64,000 nucleotides of DNA from IMG/VR virus record IMGVR_UViG_3300008459_011050, positions 62,001-126,000 of that record, one strand, 5' to 3'. A program made the position numbers and the translations under genes. This document shows, one piece after another, positions 3,620 to 46,476 of this stretch (its first letter is position 1; each line of letters begins with the position of its first letter). Under the pieces are notes generated by a model. The model was not told where the DNA came from. It worked only from the letters and a program-made list of their open reading frames with translations, and made no database searches. This stretch comes from a virus.

Positions 3620-3810
3620 TATAAATTCTCCCAATAGGTCGTAGCCTCATCAATTGAAAGCTGCTTCCATAGTTCTATATTTTCGTCAGTTACCTTATCA
3701 TCAGTAACTGATATTTCTTTGAAATAATACCTACCATCTTCATTATCTACACGAATGAAACATTCATAAAATCCACCATATTGGTAAAAATTTGCAATCG
3801 AAGCTGTCAT
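3619..3810 (-). CDS. small hypothetical protein between two fibre genes, 63 aa
   Basis: This small acidic protein (IRVDNEDGRYYFKEISV, then an amphipathic C-terminal helix) is not recognised. It overlaps the collagen-like fibre gene upstream by four bases (ATGA) and the large fibre gene downstream by one base (TAATG), so translation of all three is probably coupled. A small protein in this place could be a fibre chaperone or connector, as with the small accessory proteins beside tail-fibre genes in other phages, but this rests on position only. Confidence 0.7.
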   Translation of the reverse strand: MTASIANFYQYGGFYECFIRVDNEDGRYYFKEISVTDDKVTDENIELWKQLSIDEATTYWENL

Positions 3811-6800
3811 GTTCTTTTTCCTATTAATTCTACCAACCCCGTAGAAGCCATAAAATATAAATGGGTTCTTGAATTAGCTGTGTAATTTAGATCTGTATCA
3901 ATATCACCAGTATTATACTGCGTATCATATGATAAAGTTCTTGAACCAGTACCATCTTGTGTAACAATTACACCAAAATATTTTACATCAGTCCCTGTTG
4001 GCATATTAGTTGGGTTTTCTAAAGTTCTATTACCTCCCAATGTAACACTAAATATGGAACTATTAGAGTCGGTTATATCAATCGAAATTGTAGCGGCATC
4101 TATCAAAACAGTAGGTGTGATACTTCCACCACCCCCACCACCTGATCCGGCTGGTCCTTGTGGACCAGTTGGGCCCTGAGAACCAGTTGATCCCTTAGCC
4201 GATAATTGATCCCACCCATTTGCTACAGAGGGTGTTACGGACAAAGGTCCCCCCGAATTATTATACCAGGTCTCACCATTATAGGTGACTATATCACCCA
4301 CAGCATAAATACTTGGTGGTGCCTGCCAGGTACCTTGAAAATACCAATCTGGAGTTGTGCCACTATCACCTGCTGGACCTGTTGACCCCTGAGGGCCAGT
4401 GGGTCCTTGGGATCCAGTTGCACCAGTAGCACCTCTAGATCCTTGAGAACCAGTTGCACCACCGGATAATTCCGAAATAGTATAGATAGAACCACTCGAT
4501 AATGTACCACCACCTGAAACGAATGTTAAACCCCAATTCCAAGTAGGTGTAGGAATACCATGAGAAGTAAGACGATATATGCCATAATTTGAAGAATTTC
4601 CTACTTCTGATATTTGTGCAGTTATTGGCTTTGGTGCCAGATAGTCAGTGAAAATATTCACTAACCAATTATAGATAATATTTCCATAAATATCTGTAGG
4701 ATATCCTGTAGGGGATGGTGGTGAATTGAAACTAATACTTGAGATAGAGCTAAAACTATAACCACCTGATGTACCAAAGTTAACATTAAAACTACCAGTC
4801 GCACTTGGTGTGCTCGAAGCGGAAGATCCAAATGAAAGCCTTACTGAATTTGGACCGTCAGATCCTGTTAATCCAGTCGATCCTTGTGGACCAGTAGTTC
4901 CTTGAAATCCAGTTGATCCCTGAAAACCTTGAGGTCCTTGTGGACCAGTAGCACCAATTGACGATATAACTAATATAACTTCGTGATTGTTTGGAAAATT
5001 AGTATATCCAAGACCAGTAGCAGTCACTAAACTTACTGGTATCTCTACATAAGTATTTGGTACTATAGTCAATGATCCATTAACTAACCATTGTTGGTAA
5101 GAGGTAGAATCATTTCTATCTTGGATAATTATTTTATCACCAGCAGATATTAATTCTAAAAATATATCTACATCATCTCCTGACTCATCTATGTGTGACA
5201 CGGATAATGCAGTAGCTGATATTTGTGTTGGGTTATTCCAAATTATATATCCTGTGGGTGCAACGTAACCATCTACAAAATAAGAACCTGTTACATATGA
5301 CTCTACAGTTGAACTAGTAATTGCTAAATAGTTGAAAAATTGATTCGACTGTCCTTTTTGACCCTGAGGACCTTGTGGACCTGTATTTCCTTGAAATCCT
5401 TGTGGACCAGTAAATCCTTGTGGTCCGGTTGTTCCTTGGGTTCCTGTATTTCCTTGTGGACCAGTGTTTCCTTGGGTTCCAGTCGAACCTTGGGATCCAC
5501 TACCTTGCGGACCTGTTTCACCTTGTGGTCCGGTTGTTCCTTGGTCACCAGTAAATCCTTGTGAACCAGTTACACCCTGATAACCTGTAAATCCTTGTGG
5601 ACCTGTTGAACCTTGACTACCGGTGGGTCCAGTACTTCCGGAACCTGTTCCGCCACCCGCTGGACCTTGAGGACCTGTCGTACCCTGGGGACCGGTTGTT
5701 CCAGAACCTGTACCACCAGTTGATGGTTTAGCCTCCCATCTCGAATTTGTGCCACTCCATTGTAGAACATCACCATCGTTTGGAGTTGTATAAAAGACAT
5801 CATGTAATTCTTTTAATTCATATCCAGTATCAACCTTGACAAATATTTTCCCATTGTTTTGATGAGCATATACCACATATCCAACAATTATTATGTGATT
5901 TGGAGCCTGTGGAATGACATTCGTTATACCACCTGGTACACTAGATGACAGATATAAAACATCTCCATCGGACCAAGATTCGCCATGAAAACTAGTAGCC
6001 GTGGTATTTATACCGTTAACAAGTCCAAAGGTAGTTATAAAACCTTCCTCATTATTTAATATTGTTTCAGTTACTATACCTAGTGTAGTAGTTGAGTCTG
6101 GATCATTATCACCTTGTGATAGAACAACTGCTAATCTTTGACCTTGAGAACCACCCTCAGTTGTTATACGTATCCTAACTACCTTATATTCTGATTCTAA
6201 TAAATCACTGCCCGACTTATTAACTACTCTTACTACATTCTCTTGACCAATTTGAAGATTGACATTACCACCCTTTAAACCTAAATTTAATGTACCATCA
6301 GTATCATTCCAATAAAGTCGACCTGGTGATGAGATAGATGTGCTCTGTGTGTAAAAATCTATATAATCTAAATTGGTAATCTCGTGGTTCAACATATTAA
6401 TTGATGTTGAAGCGGTATTTCCCTGTGTCAAAACAATTGACAGTGATGGTGTAGGACCGAGTGGACCAGTCACTCCTTGATATCCTTGTGGACCAGTCAC
6501 TCCTTGATATCCTTGTGGACCACCAGCGGGCCCAGATGGTCCAGCTGGACCTTGATTACCAGCACCGCCACCAATAATTATTGTACCACTTAATGTAGCA
6601 CCAAAATTTATATCGATTGAATATGTGGATGTGTGTATAATGGAAGCGGGAAAGATATTGTTTCCCAAATCATCAATAATTTGAACCAATGGATAAGAAC
6701 CACTACTGTGTGTGACAGTTATATTATCAACAAGTATGAATGGGATATTTAATGAAGGAGCAGCTGAAGGACCAGTAACACCCTGTGATCCGGTAACACC

Positions 6801-7043
6801 TTGTATTCCTGTAGATCCTTGTGGTCCGGTAGATCCTTGTGACCCATCTATACCAGTAGATCCAGCATCTCCTACTGGTCCTTGTGGGCCAGTAGGACCC
6901 ACATCTCCTTGAGGTCCAACTGAAACAGAACCTATTATAGAAAAAAGTTCGTTACCAAACCCATCATAATAGGTATCACCTATTACTTGCACTAATCTAC
7001 CATAAGTTGAGGACACCGTTTGACCGGTTAAACTATATGTCAT
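3807..7043 (-). CDS. collagen-like tail fibre protein, 1078 aa
   Basis: Six blocks of Gly-X-Y triplets rich in GPQG, GSTG and GFTG alternate with globular beta-rich segments: near residues 45-95, 165-200, 443-570, 690-730, 860-900 and 960-985. The C-terminal ~90 residues (SNSSIFSVTLGGNRTLENP and following) resemble a globular cap seen on many phage fibre proteins. Collagen-like stretches in phage fibres form trimeric rods; that is family knowledge, the trimer here is inferred. An AT box (7050-7059) lies just upstream of the start, facing the divergent gene. It is the first gene of the leftward fibre block. Confidence 0.85.
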   Translation of the reverse strand: MTYSLTGQTVSSTYGRLVQVIGDTYYDGFGNELFSIIGSVSVGPQGDVGPTGPQGPVGDAGSTGIDGSQGSTGPQGSTGIQGVTGSQGVTGPSAAPSLNIPFILVDNITVTHSSGSYPLVQIIDDLGNNIFPASIIHTSTYSIDINFGATLSGTIIIGGGAGNQGPAGPSGPAGGPQGYQGVTGPQGYQGVTGPLGPTPSLSIVLTQGNTASTSINMLNHEITNLDYIDFYTQSTSISSPGRLYWNDTDGTLNLGLKGGNVNLQIGQENVVRVVNKSGSDLLESEYKVVRIRITTEGGSQGQRLAVVLSQGDNDPDSTTTLGIVTETILNNEEGFITTFGLVNGINTTATSFHGESWSDGDVLYLSSSVPGGITNVIPQAPNHIIIVGYVVYAHQNNGKIFVKVDTGYELKELHDVFYTTPNDGDVLQWSGTNSRWEAKPSTGGTGSGTTGPQGTTGPQGPAGGGTGSGSTGPTGSQGSTGPQGFTGYQGVTGSQGFTGDQGTTGPQGETGPQGSGSQGSTGTQGNTGPQGNTGTQGTTGPQGFTGPQGFQGNTGPQGPQGQKGQSNQFFNYLAITSSTVESYVTGSYFVDGYVAPTGYIIWNNPTQISATALSVSHIDESGDDVDIFLELISAGDKIIIQDRNDSTSYQQWLVNGSLTIVPNTYVEIPVSLVTATGLGYTNFPNNHEVILVISSIGATGPQGPQGFQGSTGFQGTTGPQGSTGLTGSDGPNSVRLSFGSSASSTPSATGSFNVNFGTSGGYSFSSISSISFNSPPSPTGYPTDIYGNIIYNWLVNIFTDYLAPKPITAQISEVGNSSNYGIYRLTSHGIPTPTWNWGLTFVSGGGTLSSGSIYTISELSGGATGSQGSRGATGATGSQGPTGPQGSTGPAGDSGTTPDWYFQGTWQAPPSIYAVGDIVTYNGETWYNNSGGPLSVTPSVANGWDQLSAKGSTGSQGPTGPQGPAGSGGGGGGSITPTVLIDAATISIDITDSNSSIFSVTLGGNRTLENPTNMPTGTDVKYFGVIVTQDGTGSRTLSYDTQYNTGDIDTDLNYTANSRTHLYFMASTGLVELIGKRT
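5345..5720 (-). repeat. longest collagen-type triplet repeat block
   Basis: Degenerate 9-base units coding for Gly-X-Y triplets fill this stretch; on the plus strand they appear as repeated CCTTGTGGACC, CCTTGGGTTCC and related words. Five shorter blocks of the same kind lie at about 6768-6908, 6455-6560, 4850-4955, 4355-4470 and 4130-4195. Such low-complexity DNA can gain or lose units and so change fibre length. Boundaries are approximate. Confidence 0.8.
6461..6522 (-). repeat. 27-bp direct tandem repeat inside the collagen-like gene
   Basis: Two identical 27-bp copies (6461-6487 and 6488-6514) are followed by the first 8 bases of a third. Each encodes one nine-residue unit of the GYQGVTGPQ type in the second collagen block. 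Exact identity at the DNA level, rather than the degenerate similarity seen in the other blocks, points to recent duplication. Confidence 0.85.
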
Positions 7044-14057: not shown

Positions 14058-14498
14058 ACCAACCTTGTATAACTGCACGTAATCACTACAAATTCCAAAA
14101 CATTTACTGAAATCATCATCAAAAATTTCTGGTAGTACGGCAATACTATTGATAATTGGTTGTTTACCAGGGTATACCCACATAAATTTTCGAGAGGTTA
14201 GTGTTAGTGTGTCTTCTTGATGCCAGAAAAAGTTCAAATCAAAATTCAGAGACAACAAATGACTAACAAGTGGTGTATTTTTACAGTGTATCCACAAATT
14301 ATTTTGTCTCTCTAAAATCCAATCTAAACTTATTGGTGTTTTAGGCTCATCATGACCCAAATAAAGAATATCATCAACAATCCATAGATCTATTTCAACA
14401 TCAAATCCTTGTGACAAGGCATCATCTATATAATCTTGTTGATTTTCTCTATCCGAGTTTCTTCCGTTAGTATTTCCCCTATGAGATATGTATTTCAT
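14028..14498 (-). CDS. short glycerophosphodiester phosphodiesterase-like protein, 156 aa
   Basis: The N-terminal half carries the GDPD active-site set: His6-Arg7 (ISHRGN), Glu18-Asn19 (REN), Glu35-x-Asp37 (VEIDLW) and His49 (LGHD). GDPD enzymes hydrolyse glycerophosphodiesters in a TIM barrel of about 240-300 residues; this protein has only 156, so the barrel is incomplete or remodelled. Short forms of this kind occur beside polysaccharide genes. It overlaps the RuBisCO-like gene by one base (TAATG), so it is translated last in the island, and its 3' end runs 30 bp into the tail gene on the other strand. Confidence 0.72.
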   Translation of the reverse strand: MKYISHRGNTNGRNSDRENQQDYIDDALSQGFDVEIDLWIVDDILYLGHDEPKTPISLDWILERQNNLWIHCKNTPLVSHLLSLNFDLNFFWHQEDTLTLTSRKFMWVYPGKQPIINSIAVLPEIFDDDFSKCFGICSDYVQLYKVGSKPLDNLRN

Positions 14499-15727
14499 TA
14501 AAAAATTCTATAAGCTAAATCTTCATGAAAATTCTTTACACCCCATTTTTCGATTGCTGCCAAATACTCTTTTTCAGTAGTGTGTCCATCGATAGATTGT
14601 CTCATCGCTCTACCACCAGCTAGTGTGCCCATCGGGTGACCATGCATCGCACCACCAACATTAGCCATCCAATCATGTGATTTCAGATACTCATTGACGT
14701 ACTGAACCAATCCTGGATGCATTCCACAACTCAAAGCTGGAACGACATTATACTTCCATAAAACCTCAAGGGCATCTTTGAGTTCGGTATCATCTTGGTT
14801 CATATATCCACCAATCATACCAGCGTGAATTGAATCAACACCGGACCATCCAGCAATCTTACAAAGTACAGGCCAGTAAATGTGATTTGGAGCACGTTTA
14901 TCGGTGAAAAACTTATCACCACTTTTCTGAAAATGTATCCAAAGGTTTGGATTTTGTTTTCGAATTGCTCTAAATACCCCCAATCCACTCCAAACATTTA
15001 TATGAATTCCGGTTCCACCTTCTTGAGCAACAAAATTAGCTCTTTCGAGAGCATATGGAGAATCACCATTTATACAAAAGGTATAAATTACATCAGGTGC
15101 ATTTTTTTGTAACCAGTTAGAAATTAAAGGAACCCTTTGTTTTAAAGAACAGTGGTTTGGATCTCCAAGTAACTCATCTTCTTTGATAAAGTTGACACCA
15201 CCATCTACCATCTCCTTGACAGCTTCTAACAGTATTGTTGGTGACATTCCAACCTTTGGTTTGATGATACCACCGAAAAACGGTTTTTCATGTGTGTTGG
15301 AATATTTTCTAAAACCATCAATACCATACGCAGGTTTCAGTCTAAAACTGTTTTCAATATCTTTTGGTAATTCAATATCCAAAACATGACATTGTTCGAT
15401 TTCTAATATATCAACCTGACCACCAGCAATATGACATAAAATTTGTGAAATACCATCTTCCTCAAGATTGATGTTTTCAAAAGGGAAAGCGATTTTTACT
15501 ATTCCCTCATTCTTGGATTTTAGTACACTCTCATCCTCTAAAATAAAACAAGAATGATCCAAAAACATTTGGTCGGTCTCCCAAACACTTCTATTGTTTG
15601 GATTACCAATGCTTTGACCTATTGCCAAATTCCAAGCGGCATCTCTAAGTGAAGTTTTACCTTTGAGGAAGTATGTAACTATGAAGTATTTGTCGTAATC
15701 TATAATATCAGTAAATATATTGACCAT
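14498..15727 (-). CDS. RuBisCO-like protein (form IV-type, not a canonical carboxylase), 409 aa
   Basis: Full-length RuBisCO large-subunit fold. By alignment to spinach RbcL it keeps Lys175/Lys177 (FGGIIKPKVG, here K156/K158), the carbamate-lysine metal set Lys201/Asp203/Glu204 (FIKEDELLGDP, K182/D184/E185), His294 (H265), His327 (H301), Ser379/Gly381 (SCG, 333-335) and Gly403/404 (G358/G359). It lacks Glu60/Thr65 (GQSIGN), Asn123 (His99), Arg295 (Phe266) and the loop-6 Lys334 (Tyr308). It can probably bind metal and enolise a sugar phosphate but not fix CO2 normally. Known RuBisCO-like proteins are enolases, isomerases or decarboxylases of sugar-type phosphates. It sits between UDP-galactopyranose mutase and a GDPD-like gene at the end of the glycan island, so a role in making or trimming an unusual sugar is inferred. 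Confidence 0.9.
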   Translation of the reverse strand: MVNIFTDIIDYDKYFIVTYFLKGKTSLRDAAWNLAIGQSIGNPNNRSVWETDQMFLDHSCFILEDESVLKSKNEGIVKIAFPFENINLEEDGISQILCHIAGGQVDILEIEQCHVLDIELPKDIENSFRLKPAYGIDGFRKYSNTHEKPFFGGIIKPKVGMSPTILLEAVKEMVDGGVNFIKEDELLGDPNHCSLKQRVPLISNWLQKNAPDVIYTFCINGDSPYALERANFVAQEGGTGIHINVWSGLGVFRAIRKQNPNLWIHFQKSGDKFFTDKRAPNHIYWPVLCKIAGWSGVDSIHAGMIGGYMNQDDTELKDALEVLWKYNVVPALSCGMHPGLVQYVNEYLKSHDWMANVGGAMHGHPMGTLAGGRAMRQSIDGHTTEKEYLAAIEKWGVKNFHEDLAYRIF

Positions 15728-15766: not shown

Positions 15767-16879
15767 TTAATCTCCATCACTGAGTGATATTTTTTTTGTT
15801 TTTGATAGGGCTGAACCAATTACTTGGTGCATGTCATAATATTTATATTCCGCTAATCTTCCACCAAAAATAAATTTATTATCATCCATTGATAATTTTT
15901 TATATTGATCATAAATTTTATTATTTGTGTCATCATTGATCGGATAATAAGCTTCATTGTTTATCGAAAAGTCCTGTGGGTATTCTTTTGTAATTATGGT
16001 ATAATTAGTATTTTTGAATTCGAAGTGTTTGTGTTCGATTATTCTAGTCCAAGGTATGTCTTTATCGGTGTAATTCACACCAGCCACTCCTTGATAGTTA
16101 TCTACATCAACTAATTCGTTTACAAACTTGAGACTTCTATATTTTAACTTACCGTACCGGTATCCGTAAAACTCATCTATCTTTCCAGTGAAAACTATTT
16201 TTTTAGCTATACCATTCCAATAATCTTTACTATTGAAATAGTCAACATTCAATTTAATCTCGATTCCATCTAATATGTTACTCACCATCTGTGTATATCC
16301 ACCGATTGGAATTCCTTGGTACAGATCATTAAAATAATTATTATCGTAATTAAATCTGAGTGGTATTCTTTTTATAATAGATACAGGTAAATTTTTTGGA
16401 TCCGTACCCCATTGTTTGTAGGTGTATCCGTATATGAGTTTTTCATAGATATCTTTACCAACATTACTTAGAGCAAACTCCTCAAGATTGTTACAAAATT
16501 CAAAATTTATTAAATCTTGATTGATCTTTTTTCTGGCCTCGTTTGGTGTAGTAACCCCCCAAAGACCCTTGAAAGTGTTCATATTGAAAGGTAGATTATA
16601 AAGTTGATCCCCATATCTTGCTAATGGTTCATACCGAAAATTATTGAAACTTATAAATCTGTTTACATAATCCCAAATACCTTTGTCAGATGTGTGAAAG
16701 ATATGTGGTCCGTATTTGTGAACATTTATACCATCCAAATTTTCAGTAAATACATTCCCCCCTATATGATTTCTTTTGTCTATAATCAGACAACTTTTAC
16801 CTCGATCTGTCATCTCTCGAGCAAATACAGCACCAAATAACCCACATCCAACGATCAGATAATCGTATTCATATTTCAT
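15767..16879 (-). CDS. glf: UDP-galactopyranose mutase
   Basis: Converts UDP-galactopyranose to UDP-galactofuranose using reduced FAD. The N-terminus has the Rossmann FAD site (DYLIVGCGLFGAVFAREM, then IDKRNHIGGN) and the family signature HKYGPHIFHT. The middle has YGYTYKQWGTDP and the C-terminus GRLAEYKYYDMHQVIGSAL, also conserved in Glf. At 370 residues the length is normal. A 39-bp gap separates it from the RuBisCO-like gene downstream and 11 bp from the methyltransferase upstream. Its presence implies galactofuranose in the phage-encoded glycan. Confidence 0.93.
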   Translation of the reverse strand: MKYEYDYLIVGCGLFGAVFAREMTDRGKSCLIIDKRNHIGGNVFTENLDGINVHKYGPHIFHTSDKGIWDYVNRFISFNNFRYEPLARYGDQLYNLPFNMNTFKGLWGVTTPNEARKKINQDLINFEFCNNLEEFALSNVGKDIYEKLIYGYTYKQWGTDPKNLPVSIIKRIPLRFNYDNNYFNDLYQGIPIGGYTQMVSNILDGIEIKLNVDYFNSKDYWNGIAKKIVFTGKIDEFYGYRYGKLKYRSLKFVNELVDVDNYQGVAGVNYTDKDIPWTRIIEHKHFEFKNTNYTIITKEYPQDFSINNEAYYPINDDTNNKIYDQYKKLSMDDNKFIFGGRLAEYKYYDMHQVIGSALSKTKKISLSDGD

Positions 16880-16890
16880 ATATAAAAAAT

Positions 16891-17592
16891 TTAAAATGAT
16901 TTGATGATATATGCTGTAGGTGCTATGAAATTCAAGTTCTTCACTTTAAGTCCCCTTTCTTTAAGAAATCTGTCGACACCAATAGACTCGCTCCACTTAG
17001 AGTGAGCATATTCATCAAATACTACTATACCACCAATTGAGACATAATCCCAAAGGTTTACTAAAGTGTTGTAAGTAGGAACTTCTAAATCGAGATCAAT
17101 GTATAATATTGATATTTTCAAACCAGGATTATCATCAACATATTTTTTTGATGTTATAGATATATCACCTTTAACAAGTTCGAAATCTGTTTGTTTGAAA
17201 CCGTGTCCTTTAAGGTTCTGTTCTAAGTATAATTTATAATCTGAATTATGCTCAAAATTTCTTCCTTGGAAAAGCGTATCCATGGTTTTACGTTGAACCT
17301 CATCATTTATTGTTGATAGAAGTTGAAATGTATCAAACATATCAAACCCAACAACTTTCTTTATGCTATTTGGATTTAACACTTCTTTCAATTTCAGAAA
17401 AGTGTAGAGTCCAGATCCCTTGAAAACTCCACATTCTAGTATGTCACCTGTAATATTTTTTACTTTATTATAGATAAGTGTTCTGGCAACGAGTTTCTGA
17501 AATACTTTTCTATCATCACTAATTATAAAACCGTTAAAATCATCAAAAATTTTTTGGGTTGTTGAAATCATCTCTATAGTTTTTATATCCAT
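16891..17592 (-). CDS. TylF/macrocin O-methyltransferase-like protein, 233 aa
   Basis: SAM-dependent methyltransferase of the TylF class. GDILECGVFKGSGLYTFLKL is the SAM-binding loop, VVGFDMFDTF and LVKGDI follow, and YIDLDLEVPTYNTLVNLW with GGIVVFDEYAHSKW holds the metal/acceptor acidic residues typical of the family. Such enzymes methylate sugar hydroxyls. A second member of the family is encoded at 27848, with which it shares the IEFGV/ILECGV and FDE motifs. Position in the island points to a sugar acceptor. Confidence 0.8.
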   Translation of the reverse strand: MDIKTIEMISTTQKIFDDFNGFIISDDRKVFQKLVARTLIYNKVKNITGDILECGVFKGSGLYTFLKLKEVLNPNSIKKVVGFDMFDTFQLLSTINDEVQRKTMDTLFQGRNFEHNSDYKLYLEQNLKGHGFKQTDFELVKGDISITSKKYVDDNPGLKISILYIDLDLEVPTYNTLVNLWDYVSIGGIVVFDEYAHSKWSESIGVDRFLKERGLKVKNLNFIAPTAYIIKSF

Positions 17593-18601: not shown

Positions 18602-19339
18602 TTATCTATAAACACCAATGTGAATTGAACAATGTTCGACTACCAAGTCATTAATTTTCTCTAGGTGAACTTTTAAATTAGATTCATCATAACTAGCATA
18701 TTGGTTGGTCTTAATAATTTCGGGATAATTATCATATACAAGACTATACTTTTTCATTGCTTCTGATGTTCCAATTGCAAATAAATTTGAACACCCATGC
18801 CCATCAGGCCAATCGTATCCTGGATTTACCAAAATTAGTTTGGGATTTTCGTCTATCCGCTTTTTTATATTTTCCCAATCAACTATGGTTTTATCCCATT
18901 CAACGTCATGATCCATCCTATATTTGATTGCGTATTTATAAGATACATTATTTTCATTTTCATACTGTTCTTTGACCTCGAATGCTTTTTTTATAGAATA
19001 AAACTGTGACCACGATGACCAAACTTTGTTTATGGGATTTCTATATCCTGGTGAAACGCTAGTATTTTTATAAAAGTCGGTTTTATCATAATCCTCAATT
19101 ATGTATTTTTTAGGTTTATATAATTCAACGAATTGTGTCGCGTCATGAACTTTACTTTGCTTATTTTCCCAACCCATCTGGTCTCCCCAACTACTCAATA
19201 ATTTATCATGTTGCCAAATATGACCAAATACGTCATATTCAAGCCCATTAAACAAATTTAAAAAATCCTCATATCCCTTCTCGACACACCTTGGTTGTCC
19301 ACTAAAACAAATTCCAAAATCCTTTATAATTTTTTCCAT
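18602..19339 (-). CDS. glycosyltransferase-like protein of the 'SGQxR' type, 245 aa
   Basis: The protein opens with FGICFSGQPRCVEKGYEDFL and has an internal YKYAIKYRMDHDVEW segment with acidic residues of a DxD kind. The same pattern (ALCLSGQIRSF ... YDVCIRARYDLKYN) is in the protein at 21579, so the two are distant paralogues. Proteins of this type occur in viral and bacterial polysaccharide clusters and are thought to be glycosyltransferases. No membrane segment. The 84-bp gap before the plus-strand gene at 19424 holds AT-rich promoter-like DNA for both directions. Confidence 0.6.
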   Translation of the reverse strand: MEKIIKDFGICFSGQPRCVEKGYEDFLNLFNGLEYDVFGHIWQHDKLLSSWGDQMGWENKQSKVHDATQFVELYKPKKYIIEDYDKTDFYKNTSVSPGYRNPINKVWSSWSQFYSIKKAFEVKEQYENENNVSYKYAIKYRMDHDVEWDKTIVDWENIKKRIDENPKLILVNPGYDWPDGHGCSNLFAIGTSEAMKKYSLVYDNYPEIIKTNQYASYDESNLKVHLEKINDLVVEHCSIHIGVYR

Positions 19340-20193: not shown

Positions 20194-21561
20194 TTATTTA
20201 TAATTTTCTAAAAAATAATTTAGATCTTCTGGTGTACCCAATCCCCACATATTTTCGACATGGTAAGTTTTTATTTTTTTACCATCATTAATCGCCAGAT
20301 TATAAACAGGACACACATAAAATTCACCATTTATCCTCATATTCTTTTCAATCATTTCCTCCGAATATTTAACAAAATCACTACCACGTTTCCAATAATA
20401 AAAACCAACGGTTGCTAAATCCGATATTGGGTTTTTTTCCGAAACTTCACTAACATAACCATCTTCACCTACTCTAGCGAATGACCACTTTGGGTGAGTT
20501 GAAGTAAATGTCACTATACCACCATCCAAATCACACTCATTCATTTTGTAAAAAAAATCGTTGGAATCCCACTCTACAAACTGATCCGAATTAGCAAAAA
20601 ACAATGGTAGGTCTACATTTATAATATCTTTAGATAAAAGAGCACTACAAGCGGCCCCTTCGGTCACACCATCAACTTCTACGATTTTACAATTTGGAGT
20701 AATTAGGTTTAGTAGTGTTCCTAAATTATATTTTTCCTTATGTGACTTTTGAACAATGTAAATGTAGTTAGCTTTGATATTCAAATTTTCAACAACAACT
20801 TGAATCATGGGTTTATTCCTAACATCAATTAGTGGCTTAGGAAAAGTATACCCAACTTTTTCAAATCTCGAACCTTGTCCAGCCATGGGTATAATCACAT
20901 TTAATTTCTCATCAGACCAATAAGGTATTGGATTTTTTTTATCCATCTCCAAAATGTTGATTTTACTCTTGATGAAATCCGAAGTTATTTCAGATGGTGA
21001 ATTTATCCTTATAACATTCGATTTACTATTTGAGGCCGCGTACAATCCTGGTGGCGAATCTTCTAAAATTAAAGTTTCGTTGGGTAAAAAACCGAAGTAG
21101 GACATCGCTTTCCAATAAATCTCAGGATGTGGTTTTGGAAATTCAACATCTTCATTTGACAAAAGTAAGTCAAAGAATTCTATAATACCCAATCTAGATA
21201 ATGAAGTTAAAACGGTTTTCTTAATACTATTTGAACAAACAGCGATTTTATATTTCTCTGATAACTCAGTTAAACAATCTATGAGGTTATTGTTAATACT
21301 CAAACTTTGTAGTTTTTGTAAGGTGATTTTTTGTTTTTTCTGCCAAATTTCGTCATACTCCGTTACTGGTAAATTTTTCTCCAGTGTCAAAATTTGTAAT
21401 TTCTGATTTGTTTTAAGACCATCAAATTTTGACAAATGATCTTCCCAAGATATAGAGTATTTATCACCAAGTGCCAAATTCAAGGCTTCGTAATGAATCT
21501 TTTTAGCATCAACTAAGACACCATCAAGATCAAAAATAATAAATTTAATTTTGTTTTTCAA
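20194..21561 (-). CDS. HAD phosphatase fused to a sugar nucleotidyltransferase, 455 aa
   Basis: Residues 1-205 are a HAD phosphatase/mutase of the beta-phosphoglucomutase type: IIFDLDGVLVDAKKIHYEAL, CSNS, KPHPEIYWKAM and LILEDSPPGLYAA hold the four HAD motifs. Residues ~218-455 are an NTP transferase (NVIIPMAGQGSRF, FPKPLIDVRNKPMI, VTEGAACSAL, ANSDQF, NGEFYVCPVYN). The C-terminal half is paralogous to the protein at 17897. The fusion could remove a phosphate and then activate the sugar-1-phosphate, two adjacent steps of NDP-heptose synthesis. It could equally serve another sugar. Two catalytic domains appear intact. Confidence 0.85.
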   Translation of the reverse strand: MKNKIKFIIFDLDGVLVDAKKIHYEALNLALGDKYSISWEDHLSKFDGLKTNQKLQILTLEKNLPVTEYDEIWQKKQKITLQKLQSLSINNNLIDCLTELSEKYKIAVCSNSIKKTVLTSLSRLGIIEFFDLLLSNEDVEFPKPHPEIYWKAMSYFGFLPNETLILEDSPPGLYAASNSKSNVIRINSPSEITSDFIKSKINILEMDKKNPIPYWSDEKLNVIIPMAGQGSRFEKVGYTFPKPLIDVRNKPMIQVVVENLNIKANYIYIVQKSHKEKYNLGTLLNLITPNCKIVEVDGVTEGAACSALLSKDIINVDLPLFFANSDQFVEWDSNDFFYKMNECDLDGGIVTFTSTHPKWSFARVGEDGYVSEVSEKNPISDLATVGFYYWKRGSDFVKYSEEMIEKNMRINGEFYVCPVYNLAINDGKKIKTYHVENMWGLGTPEDLNYFLENYK

Positions 21562-22229: not shown

Positions 22230-23233
22230 AATGAATATTTACTTTCTATATAATTTTTAATCCATTTATAGTTGAAATATTTATCTACAATATAAATCTG
22301 ATTCAATAAGCATTTTTGATAAAGGAATTCATCCTTTTGTAACAACGTATACTTCTCTACAAATTCCTCAGCGGTTGAAAATAAAGTTTCTTCTGAAAAA
22401 TAATCACCATCCTCAAATGGAAAAACCAAATCTGTTCTTTGCATCAACATAAGTGAGTTTGTAGATAATCCCTCAAAAAACCTTTTACATAAATGACCAG
22501 TACCGTTAAGATTAAGGAAATATTTAAAACTTGAAATTGCTTTAATAAAGTCAGCGTTGCTCAAGTTATTAGCAGTCAATAGATATGGATGAATTTTTTG
22601 CAAAATTTCCAAGCGGTTACAATACTCATCTGGGTATGGTTCTCTTGTTCTGTATATTGCTGTCCCAGCCCAAAAACAAGATGGTATTCTATTTTCTGGA
22701 ATTATTTTAATTCTCTCCTCATAAAGTGTCCAAGGAGCATTTGGTTTACCATAAACAATAAACGGAAATGGGAAAACATCATCATCATACTCATCAATCC
22801 AATCCTTTCTGTATTCTCTTTTGAAAACAAAATCACATTTCATATTGTTTTCTCTGAGCCACATCAATCCACCTCGGACCACTGCTCTGTCAGTGTCGTC
22901 CAAATAAATAACTCTATTTATTTTGATGTTTGAAAGTTTATCGTAGATCATTTTGAAATACTCTCTTCTTTCTGAGGTATTTGGTGTGTATGGCATGTCA
23001 TTGAATGTATGGACTGGCCAAATGAATACTACCATATCATATTCATTTTCCAAAAGAGACCAATCTTCAATAACATCGATACCGTATCTATCCTCACAAT
23101 ATTTTTTGTCCGGAATAACTTGAAGTTCCTTAAATTGATCCAAGGGAATGAATGGAGAAAAATAATCACAAGGTTCAAAAAGATGAAAAGCTGGTGGAAA
23201 ATGTTTCTCTAAATCGATGATTAAATTTTTCAT
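22226..23233 (-). CDS. GT-B-like glycosyltransferase, 335 aa
   Basis: The N-terminal part has the aromatic/acidic pattern WPVHTFNDMPYTP and VIYLDDTDRAVVRGGLMWL. The C-terminal half reads like a glycosyltransferase group-1 / CgeB-type domain (LSNADFIKAISSFKYFLNLN, HLCKRFFEGLSTNSLMLMQR, then GDYFSEETLF). No exact family is claimed. It overlaps neighbours on both sides by four bases (stop/start ATGA junctions), so it is translated together with the epimerase gene upstream and the SGQxR gene downstream. Confidence 0.65.
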   Translation of the reverse strand: MKNLIIDLEKHFPPAFHLFEPCDYFSPFIPLDQFKELQVIPDKKYCEDRYGIDVIEDWSLLENEYDMVVFIWPVHTFNDMPYTPNTSERREYFKMIYDKLSNIKINRVIYLDDTDRAVVRGGLMWLRENNMKCDFVFKREYRKDWIDEYDDDVFPFPFIVYGKPNAPWTLYEERIKIIPENRIPSCFWAGTAIYRTREPYPDEYCNRLEILQKIHPYLLTANNLSNADFIKAISSFKYFLNLNGTGHLCKRFFEGLSTNSLMLMQRTDLVFPFEDGDYFSEETLFSTAEEFVEKYTLLQKDEFLYQKCLLNQIYIVDKYFNYKWIKNYIESKYSL

Positions 23234-24135
23234 AGTGTGTTTAAATTTTTTTTAATCCAATCAATAACATCAACTCTTGGTTCAAATCCAAGTACCTCCC
23301 TAATTTTACTAATATCAGCGAGAGTATTTTCGGCCTCACCAGGTCTATAATCCAAGTGTACTTGTTTACTACTGATAAGATCTGCTATTTCTTTTATTGA
23401 TATGTTTTTACCAGAACCAACATTTAATACAGTGGCTCCAATTTTATTTTTTGAATTCATCGCTAAAATATTTACATCAACTACGTCACCAACATAGATG
23501 AAGTCCCTTCTTTTATCACCCATCCCAACAATAGTTAAATCTTGTTGTTTTTCAAATTGATCCAAGAAAATACCTAAAACAGGAGCGTAATTACCCTTCA
23601 CTGGGCTTCTTTCTCCAAACACATTAAAGTACCTGAAAATGACTGAATCTAATTTGTGCATTTTCCAATAATATCTGAAGATATCCTCTCCCAAAAATTT
23701 TGAATGTGAGTATGGATTAAGAAAATCAGTCGAATTGTCTTCCTTAGTAGGTAGATTTTCAGTCAAACCATATACAGATGATGTAGATGAATACATTACC
23801 CTTTTTATCCCATGTTTGAGAGATAAATCTAGAATATTTAACGTGCCTATTACATTCACATTATATGCTCGATGAGGGTTTTGTATTGCGGGTTGAATCC
23901 TTGATTCTGCAGCTAAGTGAAAAACATAGTCCACCCCAACAAATAGACAGTCTATTTGTTCCTTATCACAAATATCAAATTTGTGATAAGTTGTCCTCTC
24001 ATTGAAGTAAAATTTATCATTTTCGGATGCTGATAAGTCATCAATAACAACTACTTCATGACCTAGATTGACCAACTTATCAACTAGATTACTCCCAATA
24101 AACCCAGAACCACCGGTTACTATTATTTTATACAT
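23230..24135 (-). CDS. NAD-dependent sugar epimerase/dehydratase (SDR), 301 aa
   Basis: Extended short-chain dehydrogenase with the NAD motif VTGGSGFIGSNLVDKL, VFHLAAESR, catalytic Ser-Tyr-Lys (SSTSSVYG, PYSHSKFLGE) and the RYFNVFGER strand. Family: UDP-glucose 4-epimerase / related NDP-sugar epimerases, about 300-330 residues. Substrate could be UDP-galactose (feeding the mutase at 15767) or an activated heptose. It lies four bases downstream of the HAD-cytidylyltransferase gene, so both are likely coordinated. Confidence 0.85.
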   Translation of the reverse strand: MYKIIVTGGSGFIGSNLVDKLVNLGHEVVVIDDLSASENDKFYFNERTTYHKFDICDKEQIDCLFVGVDYVFHLAAESRIQPAIQNPHRAYNVNVIGTLNILDLSLKHGIKRVMYSSTSSVYGLTENLPTKEDNSTDFLNPYSHSKFLGEDIFRYYWKMHKLDSVIFRYFNVFGERSPVKGNYAPVLGIFLDQFEKQQDLTIVGMGDKRRDFIYVGDVVDVNILAMNSKNKIGATVLNVGSGKNISIKEIADLISSKQVHLDYRPGEAENTLADISKIREVLGFEPRVDVIDWIKKNLNTL

Positions 24136-24139
24136 AATT

Positions 24140-24856
24140 TTATTGTTCTTTTATCATTTTTTTGAATTTGGTTGCCGACCAACCGTGTTTTCTTGGAATA
24201 AAAAATGTATTTATATTTAGTTTCAACCCATTATGGTCTTTACCAATATAATCATCTCCCAAAAAAAGTATATCTGGTTTTACATTTTCAGTCAAAGAAA
24301 TCAATTCACTTTCAGTATTATAAAAAAATACTTCATCAACATATTTTAATGAAGTCAATATTTTTTTTCTTTCTTCTTTGGAAAGTATTGGTTTGGGCTT
24401 ACCCCTCTCAATCGAAGGATTATTGTGCAACCCAACCACCAAATACTCACAATTTTTCTTCGCCAATTCAAACATATGAATATATCCAGGATGAATTACA
24501 TCAAAAGCGCCTGCTATAAAACCAATTTTGGGATTTGTATTCTTTTTGAAATCTTCAATAGATAAATTTTTATCATCTATAAAAAAATCAAAAGATGGTT
24601 TTCCTAAAATCAATTCATTATATTTTACACCCCACGATTTAAGCTGTGTAGTAGTCAGGTCAAATAAATTATTATAAACTAAACTGACATTACCTTTGTA
24701 AGTTGTCATCCCTCTAGCCGTAAATATTTTTATATAATGACCCACATCAAACAAATTGTTGACTTTTAAGATCATTTCATCATTTGGATAAGATGAGGAA
24801 TAATTATTTGAGTCTGTACTACAAATAGTGTTATCTAGGTCGAAACAATAAATCAT
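24140..24856 (-). CDS. HAD phosphatase fused to a cytidylyltransferase-type domain, 238 aa
   Basis: Residues 1-105 form a small HAD domain (YCFDLDNTIC, IFTARGM, FFIDDKN) like phosphatases of capsule clusters. Residues ~110-238 are a nucleotidyltransferase of the RfaE/GlpT class: IGFIAGAFDVIHPGYIHMFE is the HxGH-type motif, here H-P-G-Y, followed by LVVGLHNN and FLGDDYIGKDHNG. The C-terminal domain resembles that of HldE, which transfers a nucleotide to heptose-1-phosphate, and the HAD half could do the GmhB step. Whether it makes an activated heptose or a glycerol-type product is open. It lies ten bases from the HddA-like gene. Confidence 0.78.
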   Translation of the reverse strand: MIYCFDLDNTICSTDSNNYSSSYPNDEMILKVNNLFDVGHYIKIFTARGMTTYKGNVSLVYNNLFDLTTTQLKSWGVKYNELILGKPSFDFFIDDKNLSIEDFKKNTNPKIGFIAGAFDVIHPGYIHMFELAKKNCEYLVVGLHNNPSIERGKPKPILSKEERKKILTSLKYVDEVFFYNTESELISLTENVKPDILFLGDDYIGKDHNGLKLNINTFFIPRKHGWSATKFKKMIKEQ

Positions 24857-24865
24857 AAAATTGAA

Positions 24866-25846
24866 TTAATTAAAATTACCTAGAATAACTGAACCAAGTT
24901 TGTCTATGTCAAAATGTAACCTTTTATAACCTCTACCTGTCATAAAATTCTCAACTTCTGTGTGATTTTTTTCAGTGAACAGTAGTAAAAATCCACCACC
25001 ACCAGCGCCCACTATTTTACCACCAAGAACGCCAAATAACTCCTTTGTCATTTCATAGGTCATATCAACTTCCGACACTGATATCTTATCAGAAAGACTC
25101 TTTTTCATTTTCCAATATTCGTCTAAGAGTATTCCATACTTCTTAAAGTCTCCAGACTCAAGAATACTCAATACCTCATAAGCTTGCTGTTTTATTTTCA
25201 AGAGGGTTTCCTCTGAATTACCCTTTAATTGTTTCTGATCTTGTAAAACCTCTGATGCGTCTCTTTTGACGTTTGTGTAATAAAGATGGACGTGCGAAAG
25301 AAATCTATTAAGCTCACTTTGTGATAAGTTTACCTCTTTTATATCAACGTTTCCATTGGTATCTATATCTAAGATTTTCAAACCACCAAACGCAGCAATA
25401 TATTGATCCTGTTTACCAACTGGCTCACCTAACTTATCAATCTCAATATAACATGCCTCTTCTGCCAGAACGATTGGTTCACGGTTTAACCTTTTGATTT
25501 CTCTAACAACGTTTGATAGACCCACTAAGAAACTACCCGAACTACCAAGACCGGTATTAGAAGGTAGATCAGCACAGGTGTTGACCTCAAATGAGTTAAA
25601 CATATTGTGGTGTAAAAATAGTTCTTTAGCTCTATGATTTTTTAAATCTGATGCATTATCAACAATTTCAATTTGAGAATACCTAAGTTTAAGGTAATTT
25701 TCGAATTCATCAGGTTTCAAAGTTATATAGATGTATTTGTTAATAGCTAGAGATATTACAAATCCTCCGTGTTTGGAGTAGAAGGATGGTAAGTCGGTAC
25801 CACCACCAGCAATTGTTATTCTCAAAGGTGTTCTGGAAAGTATCAT
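24866..25846 (-). CDS. hddA: HddA-like heptose-7-phosphate kinase (GHMP family)
   Basis: GHMP kinase with TPLRITIAGGGTDLPSFYSK at the N-terminus and the ATP loop DLPSNTGLGSSGSFLVGL. The later KQDQYIAAFGG segment and C-terminal KIVGAGGGGFLLLF motif are also typical of HddA, which phosphorylates D-glycero-D-manno-heptose-7-phosphate at C1. Related kinases of the family use fucose or other sugars, but the neighbours (transaldolase, GmhA-like isomerase) favour heptose. Length 326 is normal. It overlaps the transaldolase gene by four bases. Confidence 0.82.
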   Translation of the reverse strand: MILSRTPLRITIAGGGTDLPSFYSKHGGFVISLAINKYIYITLKPDEFENYLKLRYSQIEIVDNASDLKNHRAKELFLHHNMFNSFEVNTCADLPSNTGLGSSGSFLVGLSNVVREIKRLNREPIVLAEEACYIEIDKLGEPVGKQDQYIAAFGGLKILDIDTNGNVDIKEVNLSQSELNRFLSHVHLYYTNVKRDASEVLQDQKQLKGNSEETLLKIKQQAYEVLSILESGDFKKYGILLDEYWKMKKSLSDKISVSEVDMTYEMTKELFGVLGGKIVGAGGGGFLLLFTEKNHTEVENFMTGRGYKRLHFDIDKLGSVILGNFN

Positions 25847-26541
25847 AGTTTATATCCAGCGTTTTTAGCGTCATCAAAAAACATTTGAACTGTTTCTCTT
25901 GAATATTCTGTCAAATCTTTATTAGACAAATTCAATTTTTTTATAAGATCTGGTGTAACAGTAATTATATCACATCCAATTCTATCAGCTTCGAAGATAT
26001 TGTATACTTCTCTAGTACTAGCCCATAAAATCTCATGCTTCGTAGAATCTCTTTTACCTAAAGCATACTCGATAATTGGTGATGGATTCACACCAGTGTC
26101 GGCGATTCGACCGGAAAAAATCGATATCACACTTTCGGTGTCTGAGTTCAATGAATTTAAAACATTATCTATTTGTTCTTCAGTAAATACGGCTGTAATA
26201 TTTAGTTTTATTTTCAGATCACTCATTTCCTTAATCAATTCATAAGTTGGAACACCTTTCGTATTCATAACCGGAACTTTCACGTAAATATTTGGTGATA
26301 TATTTGATAGTTTCATGATCTGAGATTTCATCTCTTGATAATCATCAGCGAAAATTTCAAAGGAAATTGGTAGATCCTTCACCTGATCAGTCACCTCCTT
26401 TATGAATGATAAATAATCTTTTACACCGGATTTCTTCATAAGTGAAGGGTTGGTTGTAAATCCACTCACCATTGGATTGTTCTTGTATGTTTCCAATATT
26501 TCTGAGATATTAGAACCATCTGAAAAAATTTTTACTCTCAT
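25843..26541 (-). CDS. transaldolase (TalC/MipB-type), 232 aa
   Basis: Class I aldolase barrel with GFTTNPSLMKKSG at the N-terminus, the Schiff-base lysine in NIYVKVPVMN, then LNITAVFTEEQ, SIFSGRIADTG and EILWASTRE. These are the usual transaldolase sequence blocks. Short TalC-type enzymes of about 215-230 residues are common in phages. Transaldolase makes sedoheptulose-7-phosphate from fructose-6-phosphate and erythrose-4-phosphate, exactly the substrate of the isomerase encoded two genes upstream. The overlap with the kinase gene supports joint function rather than only a host-metabolism boost. Confidence 0.9.
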   Translation of the reverse strand: MRVKIFSDGSNISEILETYKNNPMVSGFTTNPSLMKKSGVKDYLSFIKEVTDQVKDLPISFEIFADDYQEMKSQIMKLSNISPNIYVKVPVMNTKGVPTYELIKEMSDLKIKLNITAVFTEEQIDNVLNSLNSDTESVISIFSGRIADTGVNPSPIIEYALGKRDSTKHEILWASTREVYNIFEADRIGCDIITVTPDLIKKLNLSNKDLTEYSRETVQMFFDDAKNAGYKL

Positions 26542-26555
26542 ATTAAATATTTTTT

Positions 26556-27269
26556 TTAGGGTTTATAGAAAAATAACGCGTTTTCAGCGACGTGTGGTAC
26601 TAAAAATCCAACATTTTTATTAGCGACGGCAGCTGGTCCTCTGTATTCTCTTTCACCAGTCTGTGATTGCCAATTTCTAAAATCATTAAAATCTTCCATC
26701 GCAATCTTTCTAATTTTGTTTGTTTCATCCTCATCGAATATGAAACCATACTCAGAAAATATTTGTTTCCAGTAGGTAAATGGTTGACAATTCACATGAT
26801 TGTGACCAGACTGACCCGGTAAAGCGTGTGTCATAATCACACATTTAGACTTATCAAAGTCTTTCATAAAGTTGTGGACACCTAATTCATCAACGTGTTC
26901 AACAAATTCGACCGACCAACACAAATCAAAACTACCCGTAAGATCAGAAGGTCCAGTTGTGTAATCATGTGCTAAAATTTTTTCAGGAAAGAATGAAACG
27001 TCTCTAGCAATCTTAGAACCCTCAACTCCTTGTACCTCTAGACCTAAAAAATCCTTGAAATATTTAAGATGGTATCCAAATCCACATCCGATATCTAAAA
27101 CCGATTTAATATTGTATTTATCTACAATATATTTCCACATTTTCGGACACTCTGTTCCTGGGTCCCCATCGACATTACAACCACCTAAGTGACCATCGTT
27201 AAAACTCTGGTCAAAAAGTAATGATTCATGTTTATATTTTTTTATAGATTCTCTTATAGTATTAATCAT
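26556..27269 (-). CDS. class I SAM-dependent methyltransferase, 237 aa
   Basis: Residues ~55-75 give the SAM site SVLDIGCGFGYHLKYFKDF, followed by VQGVEGSKIARDVSFF, DLCWSVEFVEHV and the acceptor-side MTHALPGQSGHNHVNCQPF. The Gln/His-rich segment and FTYWKQIFSEYGF are seen in the Methyltransf_11/25-type proteins of phage sugar clusters. It lies between transaldolase and the GmhA-like isomerase, three bases from the latter, so a sugar target, possibly the heptose, is likely but not proven. Confidence 0.78.
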   Translation of the reverse strand: MINTIRESIKKYKHESLLFDQSFNDGHLGGCNVDGDPGTECPKMWKYIVDKYNIKSVLDIGCGFGYHLKYFKDFLGLEVQGVEGSKIARDVSFFPEKILAHDYTTGPSDLTGSFDLCWSVEFVEHVDELGVHNFMKDFDKSKCVIMTHALPGQSGHNHVNCQPFTYWKQIFSEYGFIFDEDETNKIRKIAMEDFNDFRNWQSQTGEREYRGPAAVANKNVGFLVPHVAENALFFYKP

Positions 27270-27271
27270 AA

Positions 27272-27844
27272 TTATATTTTTTTATATAGAGCATTTACAA
27301 CTAGGTGCAATATTACACCCTGCCATTCCTCTGCATGAGGTGTTATCTTTTCTTGGTCAACAACTGGTATCAAAACACAACAATCGGATAATTCTTTTGA
27401 TTTACCACCATCTCTAGACACAACTGATAACTTCATAGATCCAATCTCACTAGCGTATTCAAGACACCTAACAAGGTTTAAGGAAACTTTATCGGTACCA
27501 CCACCAACAGAAAAAATCAGAATAGCATCATTTTCACCAAACTGAGAAACCTTAAGCCAATTTAGATAAGAAGTTTCCCAACTTTCATCGTTTATTCTAG
27601 CGGTAAGTTCAGAAACATTCTCAGAAATTGAATATGATTCAATGTTGAGTATCTTTCTAAAATCATTCACAGCATGAGCAGCATTTGCTGCACTCCCACC
27701 AACACCAGCGATGAACAATCTTCCTTTGCGATTTTTTAAAACTTGTATGTGATTTATAAAACTTATAATGTTTTCTTTATCAATCAAATCACATATTTGC
27801 TTTATCTGATTTAGGTAGTCACTTACGTAAATATTAAGATCCAT
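27272..27844 (-). CDS. gmhA: GmhA-like sedoheptulose-7-phosphate isomerase (SIS domain)
   Basis: SIS-domain protein of 190 residues, the size of GmhA. RLFIAGVGGSAANAAHAVND is the phosphosugar-binding loop; ILIFSVGGGTDKVSLNLVRC and VVSRDGGKSKELSDC form the second half; the C-terminal ITPHAEEWQGVILHL carries the conserved His. GmhA converts sedoheptulose-7-phosphate to D-glycero-D-manno-heptose-7-phosphate, using the transaldolase product. In E. coli GmhA a catalytic Glu follows the loop; here that spot reads NDF, as in SIS proteins of capsule clusters. Isomerase function is likely rather than certain. Confidence 0.78.
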   Translation of the reverse strand: MDLNIYVSDYLNQIKQICDLIDKENIISFINHIQVLKNRKGRLFIAGVGGSAANAAHAVNDFRKILNIESYSISENVSELTARINDESWETSYLNWLKVSQFGENDAILIFSVGGGTDKVSLNLVRCLEYASEIGSMKLSVVSRDGGKSKELSDCCVLIPVVDQEKITPHAEEWQGVILHLVVNALYKKI

Positions 27845-45533: not shown

Positions 45534-45630
45534 TTTTTTTCAAAATTGGAAAAACTTCTGTTTTTTGTTGTGATATATATTTGAACAGAAATTGATTGGT
45601 CAACTCAGATCAATCAAAAAAAAAATTTCT

Positions 45631-46476
45631 ATGTTTAACACACAAACTTATCACACTCTCGTACAGAAGATGCGAGAATTTTTTTTGCAAAAAGGTTTCT
45701 ATGAGGTACCTACACAATCAAGATTATCAATCTTGGCAGCTTGTGAAAATCCTCATTCAATTACAACATATAACTATCAAGGTCTAGTTTGGCCACTACC
45801 CCAAACAGGCCAAATGTGGTTAGAGTATGAGTTACTAAAAAACCCCGAGTGGAAAGGATGTTTCTGTATCTCAACTTCCTATCGACAAGAAAAAAACCCA
45901 ATTCCTGGTCGTCACGAATTAATTTTCCCAATGTTCGAATTTGAATCCAAAGGAACTATGGAAGATATGTTGAGACTTGAAAGTGAATTACTAACTCATT
46001 TGGGTTTTGATAGTCCAGTGGAAGTTAAGTATGACGATGTTTGTCAAGAGTATGGTGGTGTTCCGATCTTGGAAAATGAACATGAACAAAGGATGTGGGA
46101 TGAAAAGGGTCCTGTTATATCACTTCAACATTTCCCTTTGAGGACTAATCCGTTTTGGAATATGAGACATAACGATAATGGAATTTTCAATAAAGTAGAT
46201 GTTATTCTATATGGTCAAGAGACCATTGGTTCGGCCGAAAGGAGTTCTGATATTGAAAAAATGAGAGAAATGTTCTACACAATCGAAGATGGAAAATATT
46301 CTGAAAAACTTTTTGAATTATTTGGAAAAGATAGAGTTGAAAAGGAATTAGAAGATTTTTTCAAACATGACTTCTTTCCAAGATTTGGTGGTGGTATAGG
46401 AATGACCAGAATGGCTAGAGCCTACGAAATGCTACAAAAAGATAAATTAGTTGAGTCTGTACTCGAAGAAGCATAA
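45631..46476 (+). CDS. class II aminoacyl-tRNA-synthetase-like enzyme (AsnRS/AspRS core, no anticodon domain), 281 aa
   Basis: Motif 2 (CISTSYRQEKNPIPGRHELI, then PMFEFES) and motif 3 (GGGIGMTRMARAY) of class II synthetases are present. NKVDVILYGQETIGSAERSS matches the class IIb GQE...R segment. The protein is only the catalytic core of AsnRS/AspRS, without the N-terminal anticodon OB domain. Relatives without this domain make asparagine (archaeal AsnRS-like, AsnA) or attach amino acids to other targets (EpmA/GenX). Start: a TTG at 45592 adds 13 residues, but the ATG at MFNTQTYHTL is preferred. A TATATTTG box lies at 45576-45583. Ends at a terminator. Confidence 0.8.
   Translation: MFNTQTYHTLVQKMREFFLQKGFYEVPTQSRLSILAACENPHSITTYNYQGLVWPLPQTGQMWLEYELLKNPEWKGCFCISTSYRQEKNPIPGRHELIFPMFEFESKGTMEDMLRLESELLTHLGFDSPVEVKYDDVCQEYGGVPILENEHEQRMWDEKGPVISLQHFPLRTNPFWNMRHNDNGIFNKVDVILYGQETIGSAERSSDIEKMREMFYTIEDGKYSEKLFELFGKDRVEKELEDFFKHDFFPRFGGGIGMTRMARAYEMLQKDKLVESVLEEA

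Follow-up and report, generated by a model that had tools for sequence, protein, structure and literature searches.

The 64,000-nt window analysed here (positions 62001-126000 of a virus record of 178,052 bases) encodes an intact RuBisCO-like protein (RLP) between a UDP-galactopyranose mutase gene (glf) and a small GDPD-like gene (Table 1). A T4-type single-stranded DNA-binding protein and an RNA-ligase-family protein encoded near by support the phage nature of the record. The first-pass annotation had described a complete RuBisCO-fold protein with these two neighbours in a phage sugar or glycan island, and our analysis supported each of these points. Both RuBisCO domains were detected by Pfam above cut-off (RuBisCO_large, E 1.4e-33; RuBisCO_large_N, E 2.2e-06), and an AlphaFold2 model built from 40 family members (pLDDT 92.7, pTM 0.90) showed the large-subunit fold that places the protein in the RuBisCO superfamily. 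The top PDB match of the model in Foldseek was the form III RuBisCO 3a13 (E 2.9e-29), with further matches to the RLP 3nwr and to MtnW; the BFVD viral structure library returned no RuBisCO fold for the model, its best match (TM 0.40) being among generic barrels. At near-saturated dS, dN was 0.10-0.19, and by this measure the gene is under purifying selection.

Table 1. Genes of the RLP operon, the glycan island and other parts of the window.
Feature	Coordinates	Strand	Remarks
Large collagen-like repeat protein, probably virion fibre	3807-7043	minus	GxQGxTGxQG repeats; from ORF list
GDPD-like protein, 156 aa	14028-14498	minus	Overlaps RLP stop by 1 base
RuBisCO-like protein (RLP), P0001, 409 aa	14498-15727	minus	Intact ORF; Pfam, AlphaFold2 and Foldseek agree
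UDP-galactopyranose mutase (glf)	15767-16879	minus	NCBIfam UDP-GALP_mutase, 395.9 bits
TylF/Methyltransf_24 methyltransferase	16891-17592	minus	Accessory
Small metal-cupin, 106 aa	17599-17919	minus	HxHx4E motif
Sugar-1-phosphate nucleotidyltransferase (NTase), 233 aa	17897-18598	minus	Overlaps cupin gene by 23 bases
Protein without Pfam match	18602-19339	minus	Head of RLP operon; 'SGQxR' protein by inspection
HAD_2-nucleotidyltransferase fusion	20194-21561	minus	
Putative full phage heptose pathway	23230-27844	minus	Comprises the next five rows
Epimerase	23230-24135	minus	
HAD-cytidylyltransferase fusion	24140-24856	minus	
HddA-like kinase	24866-25846	minus	
Transaldolase	25843-26541	minus	
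GmhA-like SIS protein	27272-27844	minus	TIGR00441, E 5e-12; Pfam SIS_2 only marginal
Class II aminoacyl-tRNA synthetase-like protein	45592-46476	plus	PF00152, phrog_29758
Deoxyhypusine synthase homologue	48101-49072	minus	PF01916, E 6.3e-41; no PHROG match
Sigma-70 family factor	54855-55469	minus	Regions 2 and 4

Relatives of RLP were found in 88 viral stretches of IMG/VR by single-protein search and in at least 317 IMG/VR contigs by profile search. The viral proteins comprise one subfamily of about 409-411 aa with 73-86% identity and a broader one with 47-58% identity; no member was matched among INPHARED phages, which are isolates, or in PHROGs. A single scan across 84,980 species genomes recovered 19 cellular relatives, carried by SAR11 single cells, Patescibacteria, DPANN archaea, Verrucomicrobiia, Elusimicrobia, Azospirillum and Bacteroidota MAGs. 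Some of these may be phage contigs within MAGs or SAGs, and two look chromosomal: L093, which by inspection adjoins mrp- and hflKC-like genes, and L086, on a 232-kb contig. Among 347 Pelagibacteraceae genomes, 3 carried the gene. In the class to which the Azospirillum genome belongs, 1 of 385 genomes reached a family-level score; at 370 bits it stood clearly apart from the RuBisCO homologue that came next, at 114 bits. The family is carried mainly by viruses and is rare in cells, and its occurrence is real, widespread and far beyond chance.

Clustering of neighbouring genes at 81 viral loci revealed three recurrent partners, a sugar-1-phosphate nucleotidyltransferase (NTase) at 73 loci, a small metal-cupin at 69 and a GDPD-like protein at 58, the next family occurring at 23. 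When 45 non-redundant viral loci were considered, these partners were present at 42, 39 and 34, all co-directional with RLP, with the three together at 28 and RpiB at 0 of 45. Distant cellular RLPs (SAR11, Elusimicrobia, an archaeon) also adjoin the NTase and/or the GDPD-like gene. The NTase is closest to sugar-1-phosphate nucleotidylyltransferases (PDB match 4evw), and in relatives such as L120 and L170 it is replaced by a HAD_2-NTase-family member directly upstream of the cupin. The GDPD-like protein, which has no Pfam hit and gives weak but specific matches (PDB profile E 1.8e-4; fold match E 0.013), retains the GDPD catalytic residues as invariant H6, R7, E18, N19, E35, D37 and H49. Mini GDPD-like proteins of ~150 aa (model pLDDT 95.3) are also common in cyanophages that carry no RLP.

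In the window, the TylF methyltransferase gene and glf are inserted between RLP and the cupin and NTase genes, which lie just upstream of them. Methyltransferases of TylF and related types frequently flank RLP; glf, which had first been taken as meaningful context, is absent from nearly all related loci and is therefore incidental to the cassette, so a functional role for it with RLP was rejected. The protein at the head of the operon is perhaps a glycosyltransferase. An 'SGQxR'/WavE-like glycosyltransferase was considered as a constant fifth partner and rejected, being found at 7 of 45 loci only. The heptose genes appear to form a pathway of their own, which RLP need not serve, and the candidacy of RLP as their missing isomerase was rejected because a GmhA-like SIS gene is already present among them. 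It had also been stated that no known RLP role has its partner genes here. This held for methionine salvage, since neither PF01008 nor PF01048 (MtnA-type and MTA-phosphorylase-type families) was matched in the possibly incomplete phage record, and it has to be amended in that conserved NTase, cupin and mini-GDPD partners do exist. The accompanying idea of a sugar-modifying use was supported and gains a specific form from these three partners.

We mapped active-site residues by profile alignment to 2cwx and in a 102-row alignment, covering 68 family members (52 viral and 16 cellular); numbers such as K201, N123 and K334 are RuBisCO positions, and numbers such as K182 and Tyr308 are those of this RLP. 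K175, K177, K201, D203, E204, H327, G329, S379, G381 and G403 are invariant in 68/68 members, and G404 is kept in 66/68. These include the metal ligands K201, D203 and E204, corresponding to K182, D184 and E185, and the lysines K175 and K177, corresponding to K156 and K158, as the first-pass annotation had assigned them. K177 is common to RuBisCOs and this family and is not found in the other RLPs compared. Every member carries the substitutions E60G, S61Q, T65N, W66P, N123G, D202E, H294Q, A296S, K334Y and G380C, and two further changes are near-invariant (R295K, 67/68; H298D, 65/68). The replacement of Lys334 by Tyr had been correctly identified (Tyr308), and two other assignments were wrong: Asn123 is matched not by His but by Gly103 in both alignments, and Arg295 not by Phe but by Lys268, Phe266 aligning with Ile293. 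Loss of K334 and N123 is known to make carboxylation by RuBisCO very unlikely. Since all 68 members have Tyr in place of Lys334 and Gly in place of Asn123, carboxylation by RLP is unlikely, in agreement with the earlier view that it does not fix CO2. The active-site set of forms I-III, some 19 residues, is incomplete here, and residues essential for carboxylation are replaced throughout (K334Y, N123G, E60G, T65N, W66P, H294Q), as in form IV. As read from the alignments, the metal set together with K175/K177 is compatible with enolisation.

Phylogenetic analysis, in which the reference RuBisCOs were taken from alphaproteobacterial and DPANN genomes and the catabolic RLPs from plasmids, recovered the family as a single clade of 34 rows (bootstrap/SH-aLRT 100/100), present in 100% of bootstrap trees. 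In AU tests, grouping with form III was strongly rejected (p 4.6e-5), and grouping with MtnW, represented by two PDB-derived sequences of which one is partial, was rejected at p 0.03. The family falls outside the MtnW clade; a position inside it, with partner genes elsewhere in the genome, is what the first-pass annotation had regarded as fatal to its reading. A sister relationship to OiaX/four-carbon-acid-kinase RLPs was not rejected (p 0.28). The 3qfw-type RLPs, which we take as proxies for Deep-Ykr RLPs, and the phage family formed separate clades, each at 100/100. RLP scored below the cut-offs of NCBIfam rubisco_III (157 bits; cut-off 497), TIGR03332 for MtnW (86 bits; cut-off 513.6) and NF042437 for OiaX (119 bits; cut-off 700), which assigns it neither to forms I-III nor to either equivalog. 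For IV-Photo, represented by C. tepidum 1tel and R. palustris rlp2 2qyg, 1tel gave 67 bits by phmmer, the best hit giving 118 bits. IV-GOS is a serious candidate for the family given its SAR11 and marine members. On this tree, built without IV-GOS and IV-Photo sequences, the family is a new RLP clade outside the MtnW and OiaX clades.

A related cassette in cyanophages, such as Synechococcus phage Bellamy, likewise lies in a glycan cluster with a homologous NTase, a cupin and often a GDPD-like gene. Unlike the RLP cassette, it has no RLP, its NTase is fused to RpiB, and it contains additional KdsC-like HAD and PfkB-like genes; the gene order is KdsC-like HAD, PfkB-like, NTase-RpiB, cupin and, in many cases, GDPD-like. 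In Bellamy the fusion is gp206 (L250:5835-6992; RpiB domain, PF02502 E 3.9e-32 and TIGR00689 102 bits, cut-off 88.3), followed by the cupin gp207. The gp206 product is misannotated as a 'phosphatase'; such NTase-RpiB/LacAB fusions occur in dozens of viral contigs. Since the KdsC-like HAD and PfkB-like genes occur in RpiB-type cassettes and are missing from the RLP type, the two pathways may differ. Cupin-anchored scans found RLP at 70 loci, RpiB at 60, neither at 12 and both at 0, proportions that count near-copies and are biased because each scan was seeded from one cassette type. No RLP was found in 16 records taken from the RpiB-type scan, several of which are fragments, and a stand-alone rpiB lay elsewhere in 2 of 25 RLP-bearing records. 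In the NTase tree all RpiB loci fall on a single long branch, so the RLP/RpiB exchange counts once and independent repeats of the swap were rejected; three loci with neither enzyme lie inside this branch. Surface-polysaccharide clusters on bacterial plasmids contain GDPD-like, HAD phosphatase, NTase and cupin genes, with neither RLP nor RpiB seen. We also observed NTases with a small C-terminal HAD phosphatase domain (L384:4904-5998, L375:6308-7429, L401:4919-5998) that adjoin a cupin, again with neither RLP nor RpiB.

We consider it about an even bet that RLP belongs to a mobile cassette for NDP-sugar synthesis and acts in glycan decoration, most likely by isomerising a sugar phosphate. The cassette of NTase, cupin, RLP and mini-GDPD, found in tailed phages and rarely in cells, would make one activated monosaccharide for surface glycans. 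RLP would bind Mg2+ via a probably carbamylated Lys182 together with Asp184 and Glu185 and would abstract a proton from the carbon adjacent to the carbonyl group of a sugar phosphate, giving an enediolate as in RuBisCO's first step. Without the loop-6 Lys and Asn123, the proton would be returned at another carbon rather than CO2 being added, which makes isomerisation the most likely outcome. The NTase would then activate the product, with the cupin and GDPD-like protein acting before or after. We infer the catalysis, substrate, order of steps and glycan target, the glycan context coming from gene content; the biochemical role is probable in kind. This reading draws on the fold, the clade, the invariant active site, the conserved partners and the RLP-free cyanophage cassette with RpiB. 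Both RpiB and RuBisCO perform enediol(ate) chemistry on phosphorylated sugars, and in the simplest reading RLP would supply the isomerase step before nucleotidyl transfer. Against it stand the single occurrence of the RLP/RpiB exchange in the NTase tree, the three neither-enzyme loci in the RpiB branch, the stand-alone rpiB of two RLP-bearing records and the extra genes of the RpiB-type cassettes. The broader proposal, a previously undescribed viral class of the RuBisCO superfamily serving anabolic NDP-sugar synthesis and swapped with the unrelated RpiB in a mobile NTase-cupin-GDPD cassette, we advance tentatively, at somewhat below even chances.

Other reactions have to be weighed against isomerisation. 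RLP could, in the manner of OiaX, decarboxylate or cleave a phosphorylated (branched) sugar acid or act on it as a transcarboxylase, yielding an unusual short sugar phosphate for the NTase to activate; this we regard as unlikely. The permitted sister relationship to the OiaX/four-carbon-acid-kinase RLPs (e.g. L244-L249, 3nwr), which act on phosphorylated sugar derivatives, speaks for it, as do several retained phosphate-site residues, e.g. H327. However, those RLPs lie in catabolic operons with kinases and transporters, whereas the phage RLP has neither a four-carbon acid kinase nor a gene of sugar-acid catabolism beside it, and they keep E60, K334, R295 and H294 and lack K177, whereas the phage protein has Tyr for K334 and keeps K177. 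That RLP acts instead on the NDP-sugar that the NTase produces, as an epimerase or in a ring or keto rearrangement via enolisation, seems to us quite unlikely. Thr65, Trp66, Arg295 and Lys334, which belong to the phosphate sites of RuBisCO, are all changed, and other island enzymes (glf, epimerases) use NDP-sugars; but H327, S379, G381 and G403 do not vary and G404 hardly does, so a phosphate site may survive, and we know of no RLP that acts on an NDP-sugar.

A thiosugar or methionine-salvage type, either an MtnW enolase or a Deep-Ykr isomerase with its cupin, recycling MTA for the phage, is improbable. The phage RLP shares with the MtnW DK-MTP-1-P enolase (2oek) the metal ligand set and, as proposed here, metal-dependent enolisation; in MtnW, however, N123 is Lys, R295 is Pro and K177 is lost, the phage record gave no PF01008 or PF01048 match that would point to its partner genes, and the tree places RLP in a separate, fully supported clade. 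The 3qfw-type RLPs also differ at the K177, R295 and K334 positions, and they lack K177, R295 and E204, all three of which the phage RLP keeps or conservatively changes. In favour of this type, the R. rubrum Deep-Ykr RLP Rru_A1998, an MTRu-1-P isomerase, also works with a cupin (Rru_A2000) encoded near by (PMC4958253); an RLP isomerase is thus already known (PMC4958253, PMC6302742), which agrees with the main reading too. The R. rubrum RLP resembles the phage system in its RuBisCO fold, the sugar-phosphate enolisation and isomerisation proposed here and the cupin, but it belongs to a different clade and to sulfur salvage and has no NTase. That RLP is a working RuBisCO feeding carbon during infection is hardly credible: form III (2cwx, 3a13) is its nearest relative in solved fold and sequence and shares K175, K177 and the carbamate lysine set K201/D203/E204, but identity is ~25%, K334 (the loop-6 Lys), N123, E60, T65, W66 and H294 are replaced in 68/68, the form III grouping is rejected, and the partner genes serve sugar activation.

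Viral or marine homologues outside the known forms have been reported as a viral RbcL, an AMG of landfill phages, that clusters with 'RbcL-like' proteins (PMC12607003) and as unplaced RuBisCO groups in the GOS survey, whose homologues, like the phage RLP, vary at N123 (PMC1821046). Those reports present an AMG or a branch of a tree and analyse neither a cassette nor the active site or function; they are compared with RLP here by description only. A jumbo-phage survey described cupins and PfkB kinases in phage glycan clusters and made no mention of RuBisCO (PMC7824862). Our text search found no paper tying RuBisCO to an NTase, cupin and GDPD, though the subscription literature could contain one, and we propose that an NDP-sugar or glycan role for the RuBisCO fold is new. 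The RLPs to which a job has been assigned serve, as far as is known, to salvage sulfur or to break down sugars (PMC4958253, PMC6302742). The four linked genes form a small testable pathway, for which the RpiB-fused cyanophage version provides a substrate clue. The family is also a warning against equating 'rbcL' auxiliary genes called in viral metagenomes with carbon fixation, as such genes may encode sugar enzymes instead. If our reading is true, it would add an anabolic role for RLPs, make viruses the main carriers of one RuBisCO-fold enzyme and mean that the enediol chemistry of RuBisCO has been put to building phage-encoded glycans.
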